DNA from: Gammaproteobacteria bacterium | GTDB taxonomy: Bacteria; Pseudomonadota; Gammaproteobacteria; Arenicellales; Poriferihabitantaceae | NCBI GenBank assembly: GCA_026709505.1 | Contig: JAPOSW010000092.1 | Span: 1 to 51,733 of the forward strand | DNA length: 51,733 nt | Direction of reading: 5' to 3' | Part shown: piece by piece, positions 43,997 to 51,733 of the stretch | Layout of the letters: each line of letters starts with the position of its first letter | Numbering within the stretch: the first letter of the stretch is position 1 | The notes under the pieces: model-generated | What the model was told of the DNA's origin: nothing | Database searches by the model: none | What the model saw: the letters and a program-made list of their open reading frames with translations, nothing else | Made by a program: the position numbers and the translations under genes

Positions 43997-46375
43997 TCAC
44001 TCATGATCGGGCTTCTTGAATCCGCGTTTCATTTGGCTCATGCAAGCCCCAAGTGCTGGCAAAAGTACGATTGCGCCGATCATGTTCACGATAAACATGA
44101 ACATCAGGATTACCCCCATATCTGCCTGAAATTGTAATGACGAGAAAAGCCAGGTGGCAACTGACACTGCCAAGGCAAGGCCTGTAAAGATGACTCCAGA
44201 GCCAACTGTTGTCAGCGTCTTCAGATAGGCTTTCCTGAAATTCATCCCCTGTGCGCAATAGTAGCGAATCCTGCTGAAAATATAGATTCCATAATCAACG
44301 CCAATCCCACAGCCCAGGGCAATTACCGGCAAGGTTGAAATCTTCAGGCCAATTTCGAGAATGGCCATCAACCCGTATGTCAGCAGTGATGCGATCGCTA
44401 ATGGTATCACCACGCATAGTGTCGAAGTCAGTGAACGAAACGTCAGCAGACAGATCGCTATAACGGCCATATAGACAAAACCAAGAAGCTTGAATTGAGA
44501 ACTTTCAACCTCTTCGTTGGTCGCTGCCATGACCCCGACATTGCCTGCGGCAAGCCTGAATGTGATGGGTGATGAGGCATTTTCGAGATTGAACTGGGCA
44601 ACAGCTTCAACAATTCGTTCTATCGTATCGGCGGTATGGTCGGTAGTGTAGATATGAACCGCCATGACACTGCAATCGGCATTTAGCAAGCCGCTTGAGG
44701 TTGGAACAGGGGCAACAGATTGAACAAGCCGGTAATGGTTGCGAGGCAAGGTACGCCATTTTGGGTCGCCTTCGCTCCATGCAGCACTCAGCTGGCGAGC
44801 CGTGCCAGCCAGGCCGGAAACAGACTGAACTCCCTCCACATTTTTCATCTTCCATTCAAAATTATCGAGTACCTTCATGACTTCATAGTCAACGCATGCA
44901 TCAGGGCTGGTCTCCGCGATGACAGTCAGCACATCAACACCGATATGGAAGTTGTCCGTGATCGCCAGCAAGTCGAGATTGTATTGCGAATCCGGGCGCA
45001 GCTCCGGAACACCGTCCTGCTGGTCTCCAATTCTGACTTTCGATCCGTACCAGACTCCTCCTGCAGCCAATGCCGCGGAAACCATAATGACCAGGAAGGC
45101 TGCCCTGACTTGCGTTACTTTCGAAATGACAAGCCAGAAGCGCTTCGAATTGGTCCCGGCCAGTGACCGGACCCCGTAAGCCCTCCTTTTTCCTAGGTCA
45201 AGATAGCTGAGCAGCACAGGCAGCAAGCATAGATTGGTCAGGATAATGCCAGCTACGCCAATACTCGCTAGTACTGCAATTTCCCTGATGACTTGCACAT
45301 CAATTAGGGATATGACTGAAAATCCGACGATATCGGAGACAAGCGCCGCCACGCCGGGGCCGACAATTCGCCGGAAACCAGAACGCGCCACCATTAATCG
45401 GTTGCCCCCATCAACTGATTCCGCCCGAGTCGCATTGGTGATTTGAACACCATGGCTCATTGCAATCGCAAACACCAAAAAGGGGATCAACATGGACATG
45501 GGGTCGATTCCATATCCCAGTGCGCTGATAATCCCCAGTTGCCAAATCACTGCAAGCAGCGAACACACCACCAGTACTGCCGCCAATTGCAGCGATTTCA
45601 TGTACAGCATCGCTGACAAGCCGACCACTGCCAAGGCGATCAGGAAAAAAACGACAATTTCGGCTGCTCCGCCGGCAATGTCGCCAACTACCTTGGCAAA
45701 TCCGATAATGTGCATGTCGTACAAACCTTCCGACCGGGCATCGATATCGATACGCAATTGCTCAAGTCGATTGGCAACATCAATGTAGTCGAGCTTTATT
45801 CCTGTTTCGGGGTTAAATTCCTGAAGTCGCGCTGATACGATGGCACCCGTGAAACCAGTCGCAACCAAGCGTCCTACAATATCTGACTTGAGAATGTTGT
45901 TTCTCAGTTGCTCGAATCCGGCTTCATCGGGCTGAAAGCCTTCAGGCAATACGTTTCCTGCGCGAATACCGTCCTCAACGATCTCGATAAAACGCACATT
46001 GGGAGTCAAAATCGAATACACTTGAGTGCGATCAACGCCCGGTAAAAAGAATACGAAATCCGTAATTTCGTCGAGCGTGTCAATAAACCCTTCCGTGAAC
46101 ATGTCTCCCTGCTTGACCATGACAGCCATAATGACACGGTCAGCACTGCCAAAATCATCTCGGTATTCAAGATATGTCGACATGTAGGGGTGCTCGATCG
46201 GAATTAGCTTGGTAAATCCTGCATCAATTTCGAGTTTGGACGCAAACCAGGCCAATGACAGGCTCAGTGCCATGAACAGGCCAATGACGCAGCGGCGCTT
46301 GAGGAACAGCATGTTTTCAAATGTTCCAGTCATCCGTTTCAGCGAAGAGGCTTGTTGAAAGCCGGACGATGACAT
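43997..46375 (-). CDS. RND/MMPL-family transporter
   Basis: A large inner-membrane protein of 792 residues with two repeated halves, each having one helix, a periplasmic loop of roughly 200 residues and five more helices. The first bundle includes VVFFLIALAVVGLSAMLYM and YGIDPMSMLIPFLVFAIAMS, and the second GVDYGIYIFSRIRYY and VIFTGLALAVSVATWLFS. The D-x-x-x-x-S/G-M-S pattern fits the MMPL/sterol-sensing branch of RND proteins, related to hopanoid or lipid transporters. It is the last gene of a four-gene group with a YCF48 protein, DUF1329 and DUF1302 proteins, a grouping known from lipid, steroid and hydrocarbon-using bacteria. Confidence 0.85.
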   Translation of the reverse strand: MSSSGFQQASSLKRMTGTFENMLFLKRRCVIGLFMALSLSLAWFASKLEIDAGFTKLIPIEHPYMSTYLEYRDDFGSADRVIMAVMVKQGDMFTEGFIDTLDEITDFVFFLPGVDRTQVYSILTPNVRFIEIVEDGIRAGNVLPEGFQPDEAGFEQLRNNILKSDIVGRLVATGFTGAIVSARLQEFNPETGIKLDYIDVANRLEQLRIDIDARSEGLYDMHIIGFAKVVGDIAGGAAEIVVFFLIALAVVGLSAMLYMKSLQLAAVLVVCSLLAVIWQLGIISALGYGIDPMSMLIPFLVFAIAMSHGVQITNATRAESVDGGNRLMVARSGFRRIVGPGVAALVSDIVGFSVISLIDVQVIREIAVLASIGVAGIILTNLCLLPVLLSYLDLGKRRAYGVRSLAGTNSKRFWLVISKVTQVRAAFLVIMVSAALAAGGVWYGSKVRIGDQQDGVPELRPDSQYNLDLLAITDNFHIGVDVLTVIAETSPDACVDYEVMKVLDNFEWKMKNVEGVQSVSGLAGTARQLSAAWSEGDPKWRTLPRNHYRLVQSVAPVPTSSGLLNADCSVMAVHIYTTDHTADTIERIVEAVAQFNLENASSPITFRLAAGNVGVMAATNEEVESSQFKLLGFVYMAVIAICLLTFRSLTSTLCVVIPLAIASLLTYGLMAILEIGLKISTLPVIALGCGIGVDYGIYIFSRIRYYCAQGMNFRKAYLKTLTTVGSGVIFTGLALAVSVATWLFSSLQFQADMGVILMFMFIVNMIGAIVLLPALGACMSQMKRGFKKPDHE

Positions 46376-46388
46376 GACGTGACAGCCA

Positions 46389-47354
46389 TCAAGGCCTTTC
46401 GTTCCAGTCGAAATCGCTCAGCCATCTGATTCCAGACTCCCCCATGAGCAGTATTTCACCATTTGGCATGGGTATGATCGAGGTAATGTCCGATCGGTCC
46501 GGGAGTTGATGGCGCTGGAAGGTGTCTCCGCGATCCCGACTAATCAGTAACAAGCCATCACGACTTGCCGCGATGATATTGCTGTTTGCGGTGATAGCCA
46601 TGGAGGCCAAAATTGATGTCGTTTGGGTGTCCAGCCTCTCCCAGTTCGCCCCCGAATCAAAGGAGCGTGACATGCTTCCCTGCAGTCCGCTCAGATAAAG
46701 GGTATCTGGCGGCTGCGCCAAAGCGCCAAACCAGGAGCCGGAGTAACCGGTTGAGACGGCACTCCAGTTGCTTCCGCCATCATCTGATCGATATGCCATG
46801 CCTGATTCTCCACCGATGAGAATTTGATCGGTGCCAAGCGCTACAATGGAGTTCAGGTGAAGATCCTGGTCATCAAGGCTTTTTGCTTCCCAGGTCTGGC
46901 CGCCGTTCTGGGTATGCAGGAAAAACCCATATGCACCGACAGCGAATCCTTCCAGGGCATTCTTGAACCAGATATCCAGGAGCGGAGCTTCGTTTTCAGG
47001 CTGATAGTGGACGAGTTCCCAGGACTGTCCTCCATCCTGTGTGCGCAGTATTACGCCATCATGCCCGGTTACGAACCCCAGCATGCTGTCGTGCCTATGA
47101 ATGGCTGTCAGTAGCACATTGACCGGCGAGGGTGCCTGCACCCAGGATTCACCACGATCCTCGGACAGGAGAATGTGGCCTCGTTCTCCTACGGCAATAA
47201 TGCTTTCATCGACCAAGTCGCCATCGAGCAATAATGATTCAGTCGAAAGCCTTGCGAATTGTGAGGGTACAGGCTGAGCCAAGAGCAAGCCCTCAGCCAG
47301 CATTGCCAGAACGACTGCAAGAATTCCGGGCAAATACCGATTAGGCACGGCCAT
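46389..47354 (-). CDS. Secreted YCF48/BNR-repeat beta-propeller protein
   Basis: A protein of 321 residues with an N-terminal signal sequence (YLPGILAVVLAMLAEGLLLA). The mature part has about six BNR-type repeats with the S-x-D-x-G-x-x-W signature: LSEDRGESWVQA, RTQDGGQSWELV, HTQNGGQTWEAKS, RSDDGGSNWSAVS, RSFDSGANWERLD and SRDRGDTFQRH. The fold is expected to be a six- or seven-bladed propeller related to the photosystem II assembly factor YCF48. In this gene group it probably serves as a periplasmic partner of the RND protein. It starts 74 bp after the DUF1329 gene. Confidence 0.85.
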   Translation of the reverse strand: MAVPNRYLPGILAVVLAMLAEGLLLAQPVPSQFARLSTESLLLDGDLVDESIIAVGERGHILLSEDRGESWVQAPSPVNVLLTAIHRHDSMLGFVTGHDGVILRTQDGGQSWELVHYQPENEAPLLDIWFKNALEGFAVGAYGFFLHTQNGGQTWEAKSLDDQDLHLNSIVALGTDQILIGGESGMAYRSDDGGSNWSAVSTGYSGSWFGALAQPPDTLYLSGLQGSMSRSFDSGANWERLDTQTTSILASMAITANSNIIAASRDGLLLISRDRGDTFQRHQLPDRSDITSIIPMPNGEILLMGESGIRWLSDFDWNERP

Positions 47355-47428
47355 GAGTGGACGATAGGCGCATCCGGCAACTCAGTCGATATGTTGATGG
47401 CAAGGGAATGCCAGAAGCCTTTCACAGC

Positions 47429-48796
47429 CTAGCGGATTCCCTCGCGACGCAATGCCGCAACTGTAAAGTCACGGTTCTCGGGTTTCACATCCCATGTGCA
47501 CATGTTGAATTCATTGTCCAGGCCCAAAGCCAGATACCGACGGGCTTGCAAATCGATGTGCACCTCTAGTGTGGACCATATCAACGGATTTTCGTAGTAG
47601 TTGATCACATGCCCTTCCGATACACGCCACAGCTGGCCCCGGGCATCATAGCTGTCTGCATGCAAAATCTGCCACGAATCCTCGTCGACATAAAATGTAC
47701 GTCGCGGGTAAAGGTGACTGGCGCCTTCCTTTAATGTTGCCTCGACAATCCATACGCGGTGCAGCTCATAGCGTAAGTGGTCAGGGTTTGGATGCAAGGG
47801 AGTAAGCAGGTCAGAAAATGCCAGCTGACCACTGTGCAATTTGTATGAATTGTAAGGAACAAACATCTCTCGTTTGCCCAGCAGCTCCCAGTTGTATCGG
47901 TCAACGGCGCCATTGAACATGTCGAACTGGTCAGATGTGCGCAGCCCGTCCGATGTCGTCCCCGGATTGTCATAGGCTACATTCGGAGCTCGCCTCACGC
48001 GTCTTTGACCCGGGTTGTAAGTCCAGGCACGGCGGGCCTCGGCGACCTGGTTCATGGTTTCATGTACCAGCAGGATGTCGCCCGCCAGTCTTGCCGGAGA
48101 GGTGATCTTCTGCTTGAAGTACATCATCGTGTTGTCAAGTTGATCGGCTGTCATGCCTGGCAGCCAATAGCGCATTTCAGCCTGCGTAAGAAACTTGACT
48201 ATGGCAAAGTCGCCAGTTGCCGTGACTGCGGCCTGTCCCATTTCGCAATTGATCGTGTCGCCACGATAGCGCAAAAGGTGATTCCAGATGACTTCCAGTC
48301 CATTTTCCGGAATCGGAAACGGTATTCCAATTGCGGCATCCGCAACTCCGTTGCCTTCATCGGCGAGTCGCGCCGTGGCTGCGGCCAAACGAGTCGCCTC
48401 GTAAATCCTCTCCGGGGCAGAAGCGCTTCTTCGTGATGGATATACGGGCATGCGAAAACTGGAATACGCCTCCAGCATCCTCTGGTGGCCGGGAGCAAGA
48501 TTATCCCTGTACTCGTCGAGGTTGCTGCCATCAATGGTGAACAGGATCGCATCTTCCGGAAAAGGATCGCGATGGTGTTCGCCAACCCGGTATCCTTCGG
48601 GAGGTGACAGTATGCCGCCTGTCCATTCCGGTATCGTGCCTTCAGCGTTTCCCGCGCGTTCACCCCCCAATGGGGTAAGATCGGCTCCCAGTCTTGCGAT
48701 TTGCTGCTCACTCAAGTCTGCCGCCGATTGCGGTGAAAACAGGCCTGTCTGGATAGAGATCGCGACGCAGAAAAAAAGAGAAGCTTTTCCTTTCAT
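47429..48796 (-). CDS. DUF1329 protein (LolA/LolB-like fold expected)
   Basis: A 455-residue exported protein with signal peptide (SLFFCVAISIQTGLFSPQSAA). Characteristic DUF1329 features are LGADLTPLGGERAGN, GTIPEWTGGI at the start of the mature part, NPGQRRVRRAPNVAYDNPGT in the middle, and RRTFYVDEDSWQILHADSYD toward the end. DUF1329 proteins are periplasmic with a half-barrel fold that could carry lipid-like molecules; function is not settled. It lies 23 bp after the DUF1302 gene. Confidence 0.9.
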   Translation of the reverse strand: MKGKASLFFCVAISIQTGLFSPQSAADLSEQQIARLGADLTPLGGERAGNAEGTIPEWTGGILSPPEGYRVGEHHRDPFPEDAILFTIDGSNLDEYRDNLAPGHQRMLEAYSSFRMPVYPSRRSASAPERIYEATRLAAATARLADEGNGVADAAIGIPFPIPENGLEVIWNHLLRYRGDTINCEMGQAAVTATGDFAIVKFLTQAEMRYWLPGMTADQLDNTMMYFKQKITSPARLAGDILLVHETMNQVAEARRAWTYNPGQRRVRRAPNVAYDNPGTTSDGLRTSDQFDMFNGAVDRYNWELLGKREMFVPYNSYKLHSGQLAFSDLLTPLHPNPDHLRYELHRVWIVEATLKEGASHLYPRRTFYVDEDSWQILHADSYDARGQLWRVSEGHVINYYENPLIWSTLEVHIDLQARRYLALGLDNEFNMCTWDVKPENRDFTVAALRREGIR

Positions 48797-48819
48797 GATG
48801 GTTGTCCTGATCTTCCGGT

Positions 48820-50913
48820 TTAGAAATAGTAGCTTAAAGATGCCTGTATGAAATCCCTGCCCGACAGGTAATTGTTGTCTCCAGAATGGGATGTATAGCC
48901 AATATCCGCTGTCCAGCGGTTCAGATAATTCAAGCCGACTCCAAGCGTTAGGATTATTCGATCTTCCTGAAACAGTCCGCCCGGCCCCGGGGAATCCCCC
49001 TTGATTCCGTATGCATACTGCATATAGGGTCGAAGACTTGCTGCGTGGACAGCGTTGCTGTAATCAAGCCAGAGCGCACCGCGGACCCCGTAAGAAGTTG
49101 CGTCGGCAGAGCCTCCCCCTGCATGACCGTGCTCAATGGGCAGTGTTTCTTTTTCGGGCATGTCGTGGACATGATGCATGCCGCCTTCAATAATGAATCC
49201 GGTACTGTCCGAGCCCAGCGCGGATCCGAAAAGCTTGGTTGCGGTTATCTGCAGCTGACTGACATCCCGGACTACATAGCCTCTGAGATAGCCAAGATTG
49301 TTCTGCAGGCCCAGAACCGAAAGTATGTCTGCCGGACAAGTCGGTGCACAGCCCAATGGTGCCAGAGCCTCGGCAAAGAGGGAATTTTCCTCTCTTTGAA
49401 GGGGCACATCGGAATGGTATGAATACTCTCCTTGGAGGGCCCAGCCGCTGTCTGACAGCGCAGTATTGAAGCTGATGCCGAAGGTCTGGATATCTTCCGG
49501 ATATTCGACAAAGTACCTTGACGCCTTGACATATCGATCGACAACGAGGCCTCTTACGGTTGAACTTATCTGCTCCTGGACACTGTTAAGGAACACGGGT
49601 GATTGCAATGCGTTTTGCAATGCGGCCAAGCCGCTCGCATTGAGTCCGTTCTGATCGAAATGGGCAGCTGGTGTCAAGATCCCTGCGGCCCTTGCCACCC
49701 CCGTTGCAATGGCCGTCCCGCTGCGTGCTTGCCCCAGTGCTTGAGGGCTTAGAGAATTAGTCCGGGCGGCTGCGGCCAGTGACTGCAGCTGTGTACCCAG
49801 CACCCCGCCCAGTGTCTGGCTCATTCCCAGCACGTTCCGGTATGTGGCTTGCGTTGCAGCCAGTCCGCTGACCAGCGGCAATTGGCTGTGGTTATTGATA
49901 AAGAAAAACCCGAACTCAGTATCGTTCAGTGCTTCTGAAAAATACCGGATTCCCAGGCCCCATTGGCCCTGCTCGTCAACCTCTCTGTCCGGGCTGCGGT
50001 CTACGGCGAAGAATTTTGGATCATGCTCAAGTTGCAGAGGCAGGTTTCCAGTATTTGCCGGAGTTGCATAGTAGTTATGGTTCAACGCGTCGGCCAGGGG
50101 TCCGAAAGTTCGACCTGTATCGGTGATGCCATCTTGTGTCAAATAAACGTGGGTGCCGCCCGGAGTGGCGTAATCGTTCGTTGAAAAATAGGTTCCGGAC
50201 GGATCAACCCGGGATTTTTTCCAGTCGATCTGGTAGAAGCCTTCAACGGTTACGTCATCCGACAGAAATGCCGAGGCGGATACCATCGGAACGGGAATCA
50301 GGCTGTCCCGCAGCTCCGATCCCGGTGTGCGCAACCGTGCAACGTCATAGGGATTGATGATGTTGATGCCTTTGGGTATGAAGGTGCTCTCGCCCCAGTT
50401 CAGAACCTGATTCCCGATGCGCAACTGCATCGGGGTGCTGGATTGATCGAAGTTTGCATACACATAGCCATCAAGTAGACGAAGATCCCGGCCCGATATA
50501 TCCTTTGCGTCCGAAGACAAGGGAGTACGCACACGGCTGCTTCGCTGGTTTTCGTAGTCGAAGAAACCGTGTGTCCGAATGAAGAGCCCCATGTTGCGCT
50601 TGGTTGCTTCAAGTTCGGCGGTCAGGGCTATGGTGCTACTGATGATTCCGCGATCATAGTTTTCGTCTCCATCATTGGAGTTAGGACTGGTTAGGCTGCT
50701 GTCTCTCTTCCCCGTTCGGCTTGTCAGCCCGTAGGTAAGCTCAAGATCCACATTTACATCCGCTTTCCGATCATGCGGTTCGTTTGCAGCAGCGGTTACT
50801 GTGGCGAGCAAGCCGCTGATGAACATGACCAGCAAGACATCGAGCGGTTTTCGGGTCAACTTGACTCGTAGAAGACAAGTCAAGGAATAGCCGTTTACTT
50901 TAACCTTGCTCAT
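48820..50913 (-). CDS. DUF1302 outer-membrane beta-barrel protein
   Basis: A 697-residue protein of the DUF1302 family. The N-terminus carries a long signal region, with the hydrophobic core LDVLLVMFISGLLATVTAAA at about residues 24-43 and a basic stretch before it. The mature protein shows alternating amphipathic strands with Gly/Tyr/Asn turns (GNQVLNWGESTFIPKGINII is a hallmark) and ends in SLSYYF, the aromatic C-terminus needed for outer-membrane insertion. I chose the ATG at 50913 because the longer frame begins with a TTG. It is the first gene of the four-gene operon. The central part (about 360-480) has Ala/Gln-rich low-complexity sequence that may be a periplasmic or surface insertion. 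Confidence 0.87.
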   Translation of the reverse strand: MSKVKVNGYSLTCLLRVKLTRKPLDVLLVMFISGLLATVTAAANEPHDRKADVNVDLELTYGLTSRTGKRDSSLTSPNSNDGDENYDRGIISSTIALTAELEATKRNMGLFIRTHGFFDYENQRSSRVRTPLSSDAKDISGRDLRLLDGYVYANFDQSSTPMQLRIGNQVLNWGESTFIPKGINIINPYDVARLRTPGSELRDSLIPVPMVSASAFLSDDVTVEGFYQIDWKKSRVDPSGTYFSTNDYATPGGTHVYLTQDGITDTGRTFGPLADALNHNYYATPANTGNLPLQLEHDPKFFAVDRSPDREVDEQGQWGLGIRYFSEALNDTEFGFFFINNHSQLPLVSGLAATQATYRNVLGMSQTLGGVLGTQLQSLAAAARTNSLSPQALGQARSGTAIATGVARAAGILTPAAHFDQNGLNASGLAALQNALQSPVFLNSVQEQISSTVRGLVVDRYVKASRYFVEYPEDIQTFGISFNTALSDSGWALQGEYSYHSDVPLQREENSLFAEALAPLGCAPTCPADILSVLGLQNNLGYLRGYVVRDVSQLQITATKLFGSALGSDSTGFIIEGGMHHVHDMPEKETLPIEHGHAGGGSADATSYGVRGALWLDYSNAVHAASLRPYMQYAYGIKGDSPGPGGLFQEDRIILTLGVGLNYLNRWTADIGYTSHSGDNNYLSGRDFIQASLSYYF

Positions 50914-51404
50914 TGTGTAATTTCTTTTTTGCTGAATGTGATTGTGTTGACCATCATCAACCAACCGCTGTGGACAAATTCCGCAACGTCAACCTGCACG
51001 GTCGGTAGGCATGCTTCAGATTTTCGGGCTCCAGCATGGTCGTACCATTCGCTGTTTTGGCCACGCATGAAATTTACCATGTATTTGCACTGATTATTGT
51101 ATAAATATGATATATGAAAATGATACAAACCATTAATTTAATCGTGATGGGTTCGTTCATGGTGAACCAGCGCATTGAATCCCTGATGCGTTATACCGGT
51201 ATTTCGAGCTTTCCGAGTAGACCCTGTATCCTTTAATCACATTTGCGCTTTTTTATGGCTTTGATTTCACGGTCCTGACCGGCCGCAATGCAGACCGGGC
51301 AAGGTTTTCTGGCAGTGCCCCGGCTGGCAATCAGCCTGTTTTCCGGAAGGCGAAACTGGTATAATGCCCGTAATTGCAACAACTCGCGTTAAGTGGAAAA
51401 GATA
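50914..51404. other. Divergent regulatory region with a possible coupled small frame
   Basis: No supported gene. On the minus strand an open frame of 72 codons (51128 to 50910) ends with a TGA that overlaps the DUF1302 ATG (ATGA). It could be a translated leader, but its sequence has no family match that I recognise. Very AT-rich DNA at 51090-51140 could hold the promoter of the DUF1302 operon. Confidence 0.35.
51337..51365 (+). promoter_or_regulatory. Likely promoter of the poly-C secreted-protein gene
   Basis: A perfect -10 TATAAT at 51360-51365 lies 17 bp from a weak -35 (TGTTTT at 51337-51342). It would start transcription near 51372, about 33 bp before the ATG at 51405. Confidence 0.5.
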
Positions 51405-51733
51405 ATGAAACAACTGACCAGATTCACCCCCCCCCCCCTCGTAAATTAACAGCCCCCCTTGCTCTTGTCCTTGCGCTGCTGGTGCTGGCCGCGCCGGTCT
51501 CGGCGCAGACCATAACCGCGCCGGGGATGATCGGCCAACCTGCTTGTGCGGGACCGGGAGAGACTGATGATCCTGTCAGTGGATCGGTTTCGAATATAAC
51601 GGCCAATAGTGCAAACACCACAACTGATCTTTATAGCAATCTGTACGGCGCGTTGAGAGCACAGGCGGGCGATGGGGGGCCAACTTCATTTCCTCTCACA
51701 CTTTACATCAGGAACGCCATAACGAATGCAGTA
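51405..51733 (+). pseudogene. Secreted-protein gene, out of frame at a (C)12 tract; runs off the window
   Basis: From the ATG at 51405 the frame reads MKQLTRFTPPPLVN and then stops (TAA at 51447-51449). If the C-run at 51427-51438 were 10 or 13 bases instead of 12, the frame would pass into RKLTAPLALVLALLVLAA and PVSAQTITAPG. That is a complete signal peptide (basic n-region, Leu/Ala core, A-Q cleavage site) followed by a Thr/Asn/Gly-rich mature part open to the window edge. The gene is therefore off at this tract length. Either it is phase-variable by slipped-strand mispairing, or the run was miscounted. The product, so far as seen, is an exported protein of unknown family, possibly an adhesin or autotransporter. 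Confidence 0.6.
51427..51438 (+). repeat. Homopolymeric (C)12 tract in the signal-peptide coding region
   Basis: Twelve consecutive C bases, followed 14 bases later by six more C. Runs of this length are rare in bacterial coding DNA and are hot spots for slipped-strand mispairing. They are also hot spots for sequencing errors. Confidence 0.85.

Follow-up and report, generated by a model that had tools for sequence, protein, structure and literature searches.

Does the length of a single run of cytosines decide whether an exported protein is made? The question is raised by the far end of the window, the whole analysed stretch of 51733 bp, which is contig C29 of the source genome G000, a 3.5 Mb MAG that is 94 % complete. 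There, a gene cut off by the contig end carries a C12 tract inside the coding region of its signal-peptide leader. Here we present a comparison of this locus with its paralogues and with relatives in other bacteria. We conclude that the tract is very probably a slipped-strand-mispairing switch within the signal-peptide leader of a dispersed family of putative exported proteins.

The poly-C region at the end of the window

The preliminary description of this DNA, made from the letters and their open reading frames, had placed the tract between the start codon and the core of a signal peptide. Direct reading bears this out (Table 1), with an A before the tract and a T after it. At the assembled length the ATG frame reads MKQLTRFTPPPLVN and ends after 14 residues, the short product that had been described. 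With n = 10 or 13 the ATG comes into frame with RKLTAPLALVLALLVLAAPVSA followed by Q, a typical signal peptide. These are the lengths named earlier as giving the exported frame, which in the window copy is readable to residue 98 before the contig ends. The tract is far longer than chance would give: 0.14 occurrences of C10 are predicted for the window against three present, all within the one C12 tract. Its position makes its length set the reading frame.

Table 1. Features of the poly-C locus in the window
Feature	Position	Strand	Basis
-10-like hexamer TATAAT, seen as TGGTATAAT, 45 nt upstream of the ATG	51360..51365	+	sequence
ATG and conserved 22-nt leader ATGAAACAACTGACCAGATTCA (MKQLTRF and first base)	51405..51426	+	leader pattern search
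ATG itself	51405-51407	+	direct reading
C12 tract, putative switch by slippage (on at n = 1 mod 3)	51427..51438	+	sequence
Junction TCGTAAATTAAC with TAA in both wrong frames (51442-51444, third frame; 51447-51449, ATG frame at n = 12)	51439..51450	+	sequence
Signal-peptide core of the exported frame, end ...APVSA	51440..51505	+	translation, judged by eye
First part of the family-A mature protein QTITAPGMIGQPACAGPGE..., truncated at the contig end	51506..51733	+	member of alignment A1

The adjoining promoter that had been proposed stands in part: the TATAAT hexamer is present, and no -35 hexamer meeting the sigma-70 consensus lies upstream of it. The paralogues have GGAGAA as their ribosome site, and that of the window copy is weaker. 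Contig C43, which has a family-A fragment at its start, was considered as the continuation of the window gene and rejected, no exact overlap being found. A minus-strand cluster at 43997-50913, divergent from the poly-C gene, comprises an MMPL transporter, a YCF48-like gene, DUF1329 and DUF1302.

A dispersed family behind one leader

About 20 dispersed paralogues in G000 have a common leader, a (C)9-16 tract and a signal peptide. The cassette is built, in order, of a -10-like hexamer, a ribosome site, a 22-nt leader (e.g. ATGAAACGACTAATGAGATTCA), the (C)n tract, TCGTAAATTAAC or TCGCTAAATTAGC, the signal-peptide core, which usually ends GCGCAG, and a mature part that is divergent from there on. 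The leader pattern matches 22 times in G000, three of these copies having an interrupted tract, and 9 times in the congener G003; it is absent from five other congeners, and the reversed pattern gave 0 matches. Three more G000 copies (on C58, C70 and C129) have variant leaders, and the congener G005 holds one tract copy with a family-A protein. In most of 29 leaders of G000 and G003 the -10-like hexamer lies 35-67 nt upstream of the ATG. Part of the family is dead, since some members have decayed (C52:350, C49:10386, C61). Several contigs of G000 end inside family leaders.

Frame use was counted in 48 family members whose leader could be read. Their tract lengths run from 8 to 17, a variation between paralogues and not between strains, and are consensus values of MAG assemblies with some poly-G noise elsewhere. 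Twelve of the 48 tracts are in frame, which is compatible with a random one third (p = 0.28; the members are related and the counts are not independent). The off copies mostly keep long open frames. Pairwise dN/dS in the 45 closest pairs is 0.16-0.71; pairs of two off copies also fall below 1, and thus the downstream frame is selected as protein even where the tract as assembled reads off. A selected frame behind an off tract is what would be expected of a reversible switch, and it argues against pseudogenes.

The junction after the tract carries a second regularity. Both wrong frames are stopped at most 7 codons after the tract in 41 of the 48 members, which are related, versus 34 of 369 control ORFs (9 %). 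Common descent of TAAATTAAC accounts for part of this excess. Because the double stops arise from different sequences (TCGTAAATTAAC, TCGCCCGCTAGCTAG, ACTTTTAATCTGA and others), the pattern suggests that a clean off state is itself under selection.

These observations also bear on readings in which DNA length is no switch. Long homopolymers can cause transcriptional slippage, and if RNA polymerase or the ribosome slipped on the tract, every copy would always make some full-length protein whatever its length in the DNA. Such slippage at the RNA level would fit the fact that most copies are out of frame as assembled yet under purifying selection. It is nonetheless unlikely, as the lengths are scattered over 8-17 instead of being held at one value, and as, were slippage constant, most of the product would be lost to the stops in the two wrong frames. 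Less likely by a clear step is a graveyard of disused genes in which the tracts have expanded neutrally. The stops and interrupted tracts of some copies would suit it, as would the mere quarter of copies in frame, but most mature frames are open over at least 200 codons, dN/dS is below 1 in 45 of 45 closest pairs, and the leader, the tract and the double stops are all conserved.

An error of sequencing or assembly in the presence or length of the tracts is a little less probable again. G000 contains, on both strands, 60 runs of at least 11 C and 78 of at least 10. Over 582 kb sampled, A/T runs go no further than 9-10 even though short A/T runs are commoner, while C/G runs almost vanish at 7-9 and reappear as a distinct population from 10 upward; the sample was picked around tracts, which biases the absolute density and leaves the absence of long A/T runs and the gap in lengths unbiased. 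Noisy poly-C or poly-G stretches beside N gaps or contig ends (C72:26371, C39:38041 and C42:23-79; loci L069, L020 and L054) are likely artefacts of this kind. Since the lengths are those of assembled contigs, errors of one base are possible and would alter on/off calls only. As a general cause, artefact is rejected on the tract's position: it falls at the same codon in many paralogues, bordered on each side by clean unique sequence, and does so again in the independent assemblies of G003, G005 and the CAR MAGs described below. A/T runs, moreover, show nothing alike.

Translation from an upstream TTG at 51374 is hardly credible. At n = 12 this codon is in frame with the exported frame and the frame 51374-51733 is open, but the TTG follows the -10 hexamer by 9 nt, at or beside the expected transcript start, and so leaves no room for a ribosome site; 0 of 14 other off copies tested in G000 have an in-frame start upstream of the tract. 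Control of promoter spacing by the tract was rejected, the tract being 3′ of the ATG in nearly all copies.

The phase-variable exported protein put forward in the preliminary description thus remains the best reading of the locus: some 20 genes share the leader and a tract of 9-16, mostly out of frame, and the mature frames behind the tracts are under purifying selection.

Tracts in G000 are also found outside the family. G/C tracts of 12-16 occur at C30:9217, C51:35610 and C121:4277 (loci L019, L057 and L079). The first is within an N6_N4 DNA methylase, out of frame, and the second within a D12 adenine methyltransferase; the third is in frame, in a protein that resembles a type III restriction subunit by eye and whose tested piece has no Pfam match. 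Phase-variable restriction-modification is possible at these three sites. At C33:17206, C33:3806 and C84:2170 (loci L011 and L073) tracts lie within an O-antigen ligase (Wzy_C), a BBP2 outer-membrane barrel or porin, and a gene called sulfotransferase-like by eye only; those that interrupt the ligase and the porin are G/C tracts of at least 10. DNA methyltransferase, O-antigen ligase and porin genes belong to classes that are often phase variable.

The architecture of the cassette recurs outside the family in a 513-residue lipoprotein with C15 at codon 8 (C41:21678, L053) and in a putative exported protein with a G13 tract ahead of its signal peptide (C55:91051, L059). Tracts at C5:51030, C5:60991 and C33:347 (L012, L011) fall in short frames with a common motif like KPWSAPHVGELDI, perhaps peptide precursors. 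A repeated sequence ending GTTAATGACATTG adjoins C-tracts at C58:37995, C67:766 and C79:1033 (L062, L065 and L071). A related end, TTTGTCAACTTATGTATATAAG, directly adjoins a family leader junction at C49:1-60 (L211), as would result from the insertion of an element into the tract.

Mature families and their relatives in two classes

Protein search divides the mature parts into three families: A (the window, C15, C37, C38, C52 and others), B (C21, C51, C58, C61, C129) and C (C2, C72, C107, C128), with A joined to B and C through the signal peptide only. The same leader also stands ahead of a lipoprotein (C56). Five representatives had no Pfam match up to E 0.1, the mature parts gave nothing convincing in Pfam, NCBIfam or PHROGs, and a scan of viral contigs returned no relative.

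For family A, structure prediction from a 31-row alignment (mean pLDDT 76) gives a small sandwich of FN3-like form, with a tail that is helical and contains cysteines. Nearly all of the best 50 structural matches to residues 22-139 are FN3 or FN3-like (Z 6.3-7.5, 8-19 % identity). Because the Foldseek matches of the model are weak (E at least 0.03), an FN3-like mature domain is no more than likely. After this region the family-A alignment has conserved cysteines and the motif CFMTGGTYTPxNESGQPG...SGCFSISPRTxQDVRNCLCGR.

One family-A protein was used to scan 84,980 species genomes; the scan, which detects close relatives only, yielded 47 further loci. All are in MAGs of a single metagenome series, named CAR1-CAR4, that belong to Alpha- and Gammaproteobacteria (Rhodobacteraceae, Aestuariivita, Thiotrichales, Rhodospirillaceae, Gammaproteobacteria and others), and most carry a C8-C22 leader of their own. 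Within the order of the window, the family-A model matches 3 of 109 genomes, all of one genus. Judging from their names only, the CAR MAGs are probably from a sponge; Carteriospongia is a guess.

Leader and mature part are decoupled in these genomes. The commonest leader of CAR1_bin_2 (Rhodobacteraceae) is ATGAAACGACTGTTGAATA-(C)8-10-ACTTTTAATCTGATCGCC, which is on at n = 8 and mostly assembled as 9. Leader identity is 71 % between unrelated mature families within G000 and 31 % between G000 and CAR1_bin_2 within one mature family; by this measure the leader goes with the genome, and the mature part with the family. The mature part of the window gene has about 89 % DNA identity to that of locus L246 of CAR1_bin_2 behind a different leader, and C37 and L228 repeat the pattern of like mature parts with differing leaders. 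L246 is on a short contig (11 kb), but for other copies of CAR1_bin_2 (L230, L239, L262) the contigs measure 90-140 kb. Provided that the binning is correct, mature parts would move between classes and join a resident switch.

In Thiotrichales (L254, L256) and in some copies of Aestuariivita (L265) a second ATG comes after the tract, which thus belongs to a short frame upstream of the exported gene, either fused to that gene or overlapping it. Given this second ATG, the short frame might act there by coupling.

The proposed switch and its known counterparts

The switch that we propose would work as follows. From what is established for SSR loci, slipped-strand mispairing would add or remove C and change n, and each change in n could decide whether the ATG shares the frame of the signal peptide. 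In two frames out of three, translation would meet the built-in stops at once, the off state; at the window locus n = 1 mod 3 would be on, with the exported protein made at n = 10, 13 or 16. Each locus would flip independently, and about 20 independent copies could give a clonal population many combinations of FN3-like and other exported domains. The leader is genome-specific; the mature domains, which other lineages share, appear to have been joined to the resident leader by recombination. Switching in living cells, secretion or surface location, bet-hedging and a role toward host, phage or grazers are what we infer from this scheme.

A broader proposal, to which we give slightly more doubt than conviction, is that Alpha- and Gammaproteobacteria of one host share a horizontally transferred pool of exported FN3-like proteins, each lineage keeping them behind its own poly-C double-stop leader. 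This would amount to a community-wide, exchangeable phase-variable repertoire outside known pathogens. Whether multi-locus phase variation is confined to pathogens is named as an open question in a 2025 review (PMC11868660). In the present case, uncultured and apparently host-associated bacteria of two classes have dozens of poly-C tracts, as pathogens do; many of these lie in a single exported family, and others in DNA methyltransferases. The question thus becomes testable with existing metagenome reads, and the finding suggests that presumed symbionts vary exported proteins stochastically against host recognition, phages or grazers.

FN3 proteins are enriched in MAGs of sponge symbionts and have been proposed to serve adhesion, in a paper without mention of phase variation (PMC8163846). 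Their FN3-type fold would be a likeness to family A if the fold predicted for the latter holds; unlike them, family A has no Pfam match and is similar at the fold level only. Among papers outside subscription, we found none that deals with phase variation in sponge symbionts in connection with homopolymers or eukaryotic-like proteins. Campylobacter and other multi-locus phase-variable genomes have many poly-G/C contingency loci each (PMC8355987, PMC11868660). As in G000, these are G/C tracts of about 8-16 on surface, modification and DNA-methyltransferase genes. Those genomes, however, belong to pathogens and commensals, whereas here one leader cassette is repeated over an exported family in uncultured MAGs.

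The likeness to Neisseria switches that had been drawn for this locus is apt, and the closest of them is opa, in which CTCTT repeats lie in the region coding for the leader peptide and recombination takes place between copies (PMC3960869). Both systems place a repeat, hypermutable in opa and probably so here, in the leader-peptide coding sequence, where frame sets or would set on and off, and both comprise a number of scattered copies that agree in their 5′ part and vary in the mature part; diversity by recombination between copies, which here seems likely, we count as a further likeness. In contrast to opa, the repeat is poly-C and not CTCTT, the copies number about 20, and the mature proteins, predicted to be FN3-like or a lipoprotein, are probably unrelated to the Opa outer-membrane barrel, although families B and C might have a barrel fold. 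Also unlike opa, the same mature family occurs in two bacterial classes with different leaders, and double stops are built in. By this comparison the poly-C family works most like Neisseria opa, yet we do not class it as an Opa member.
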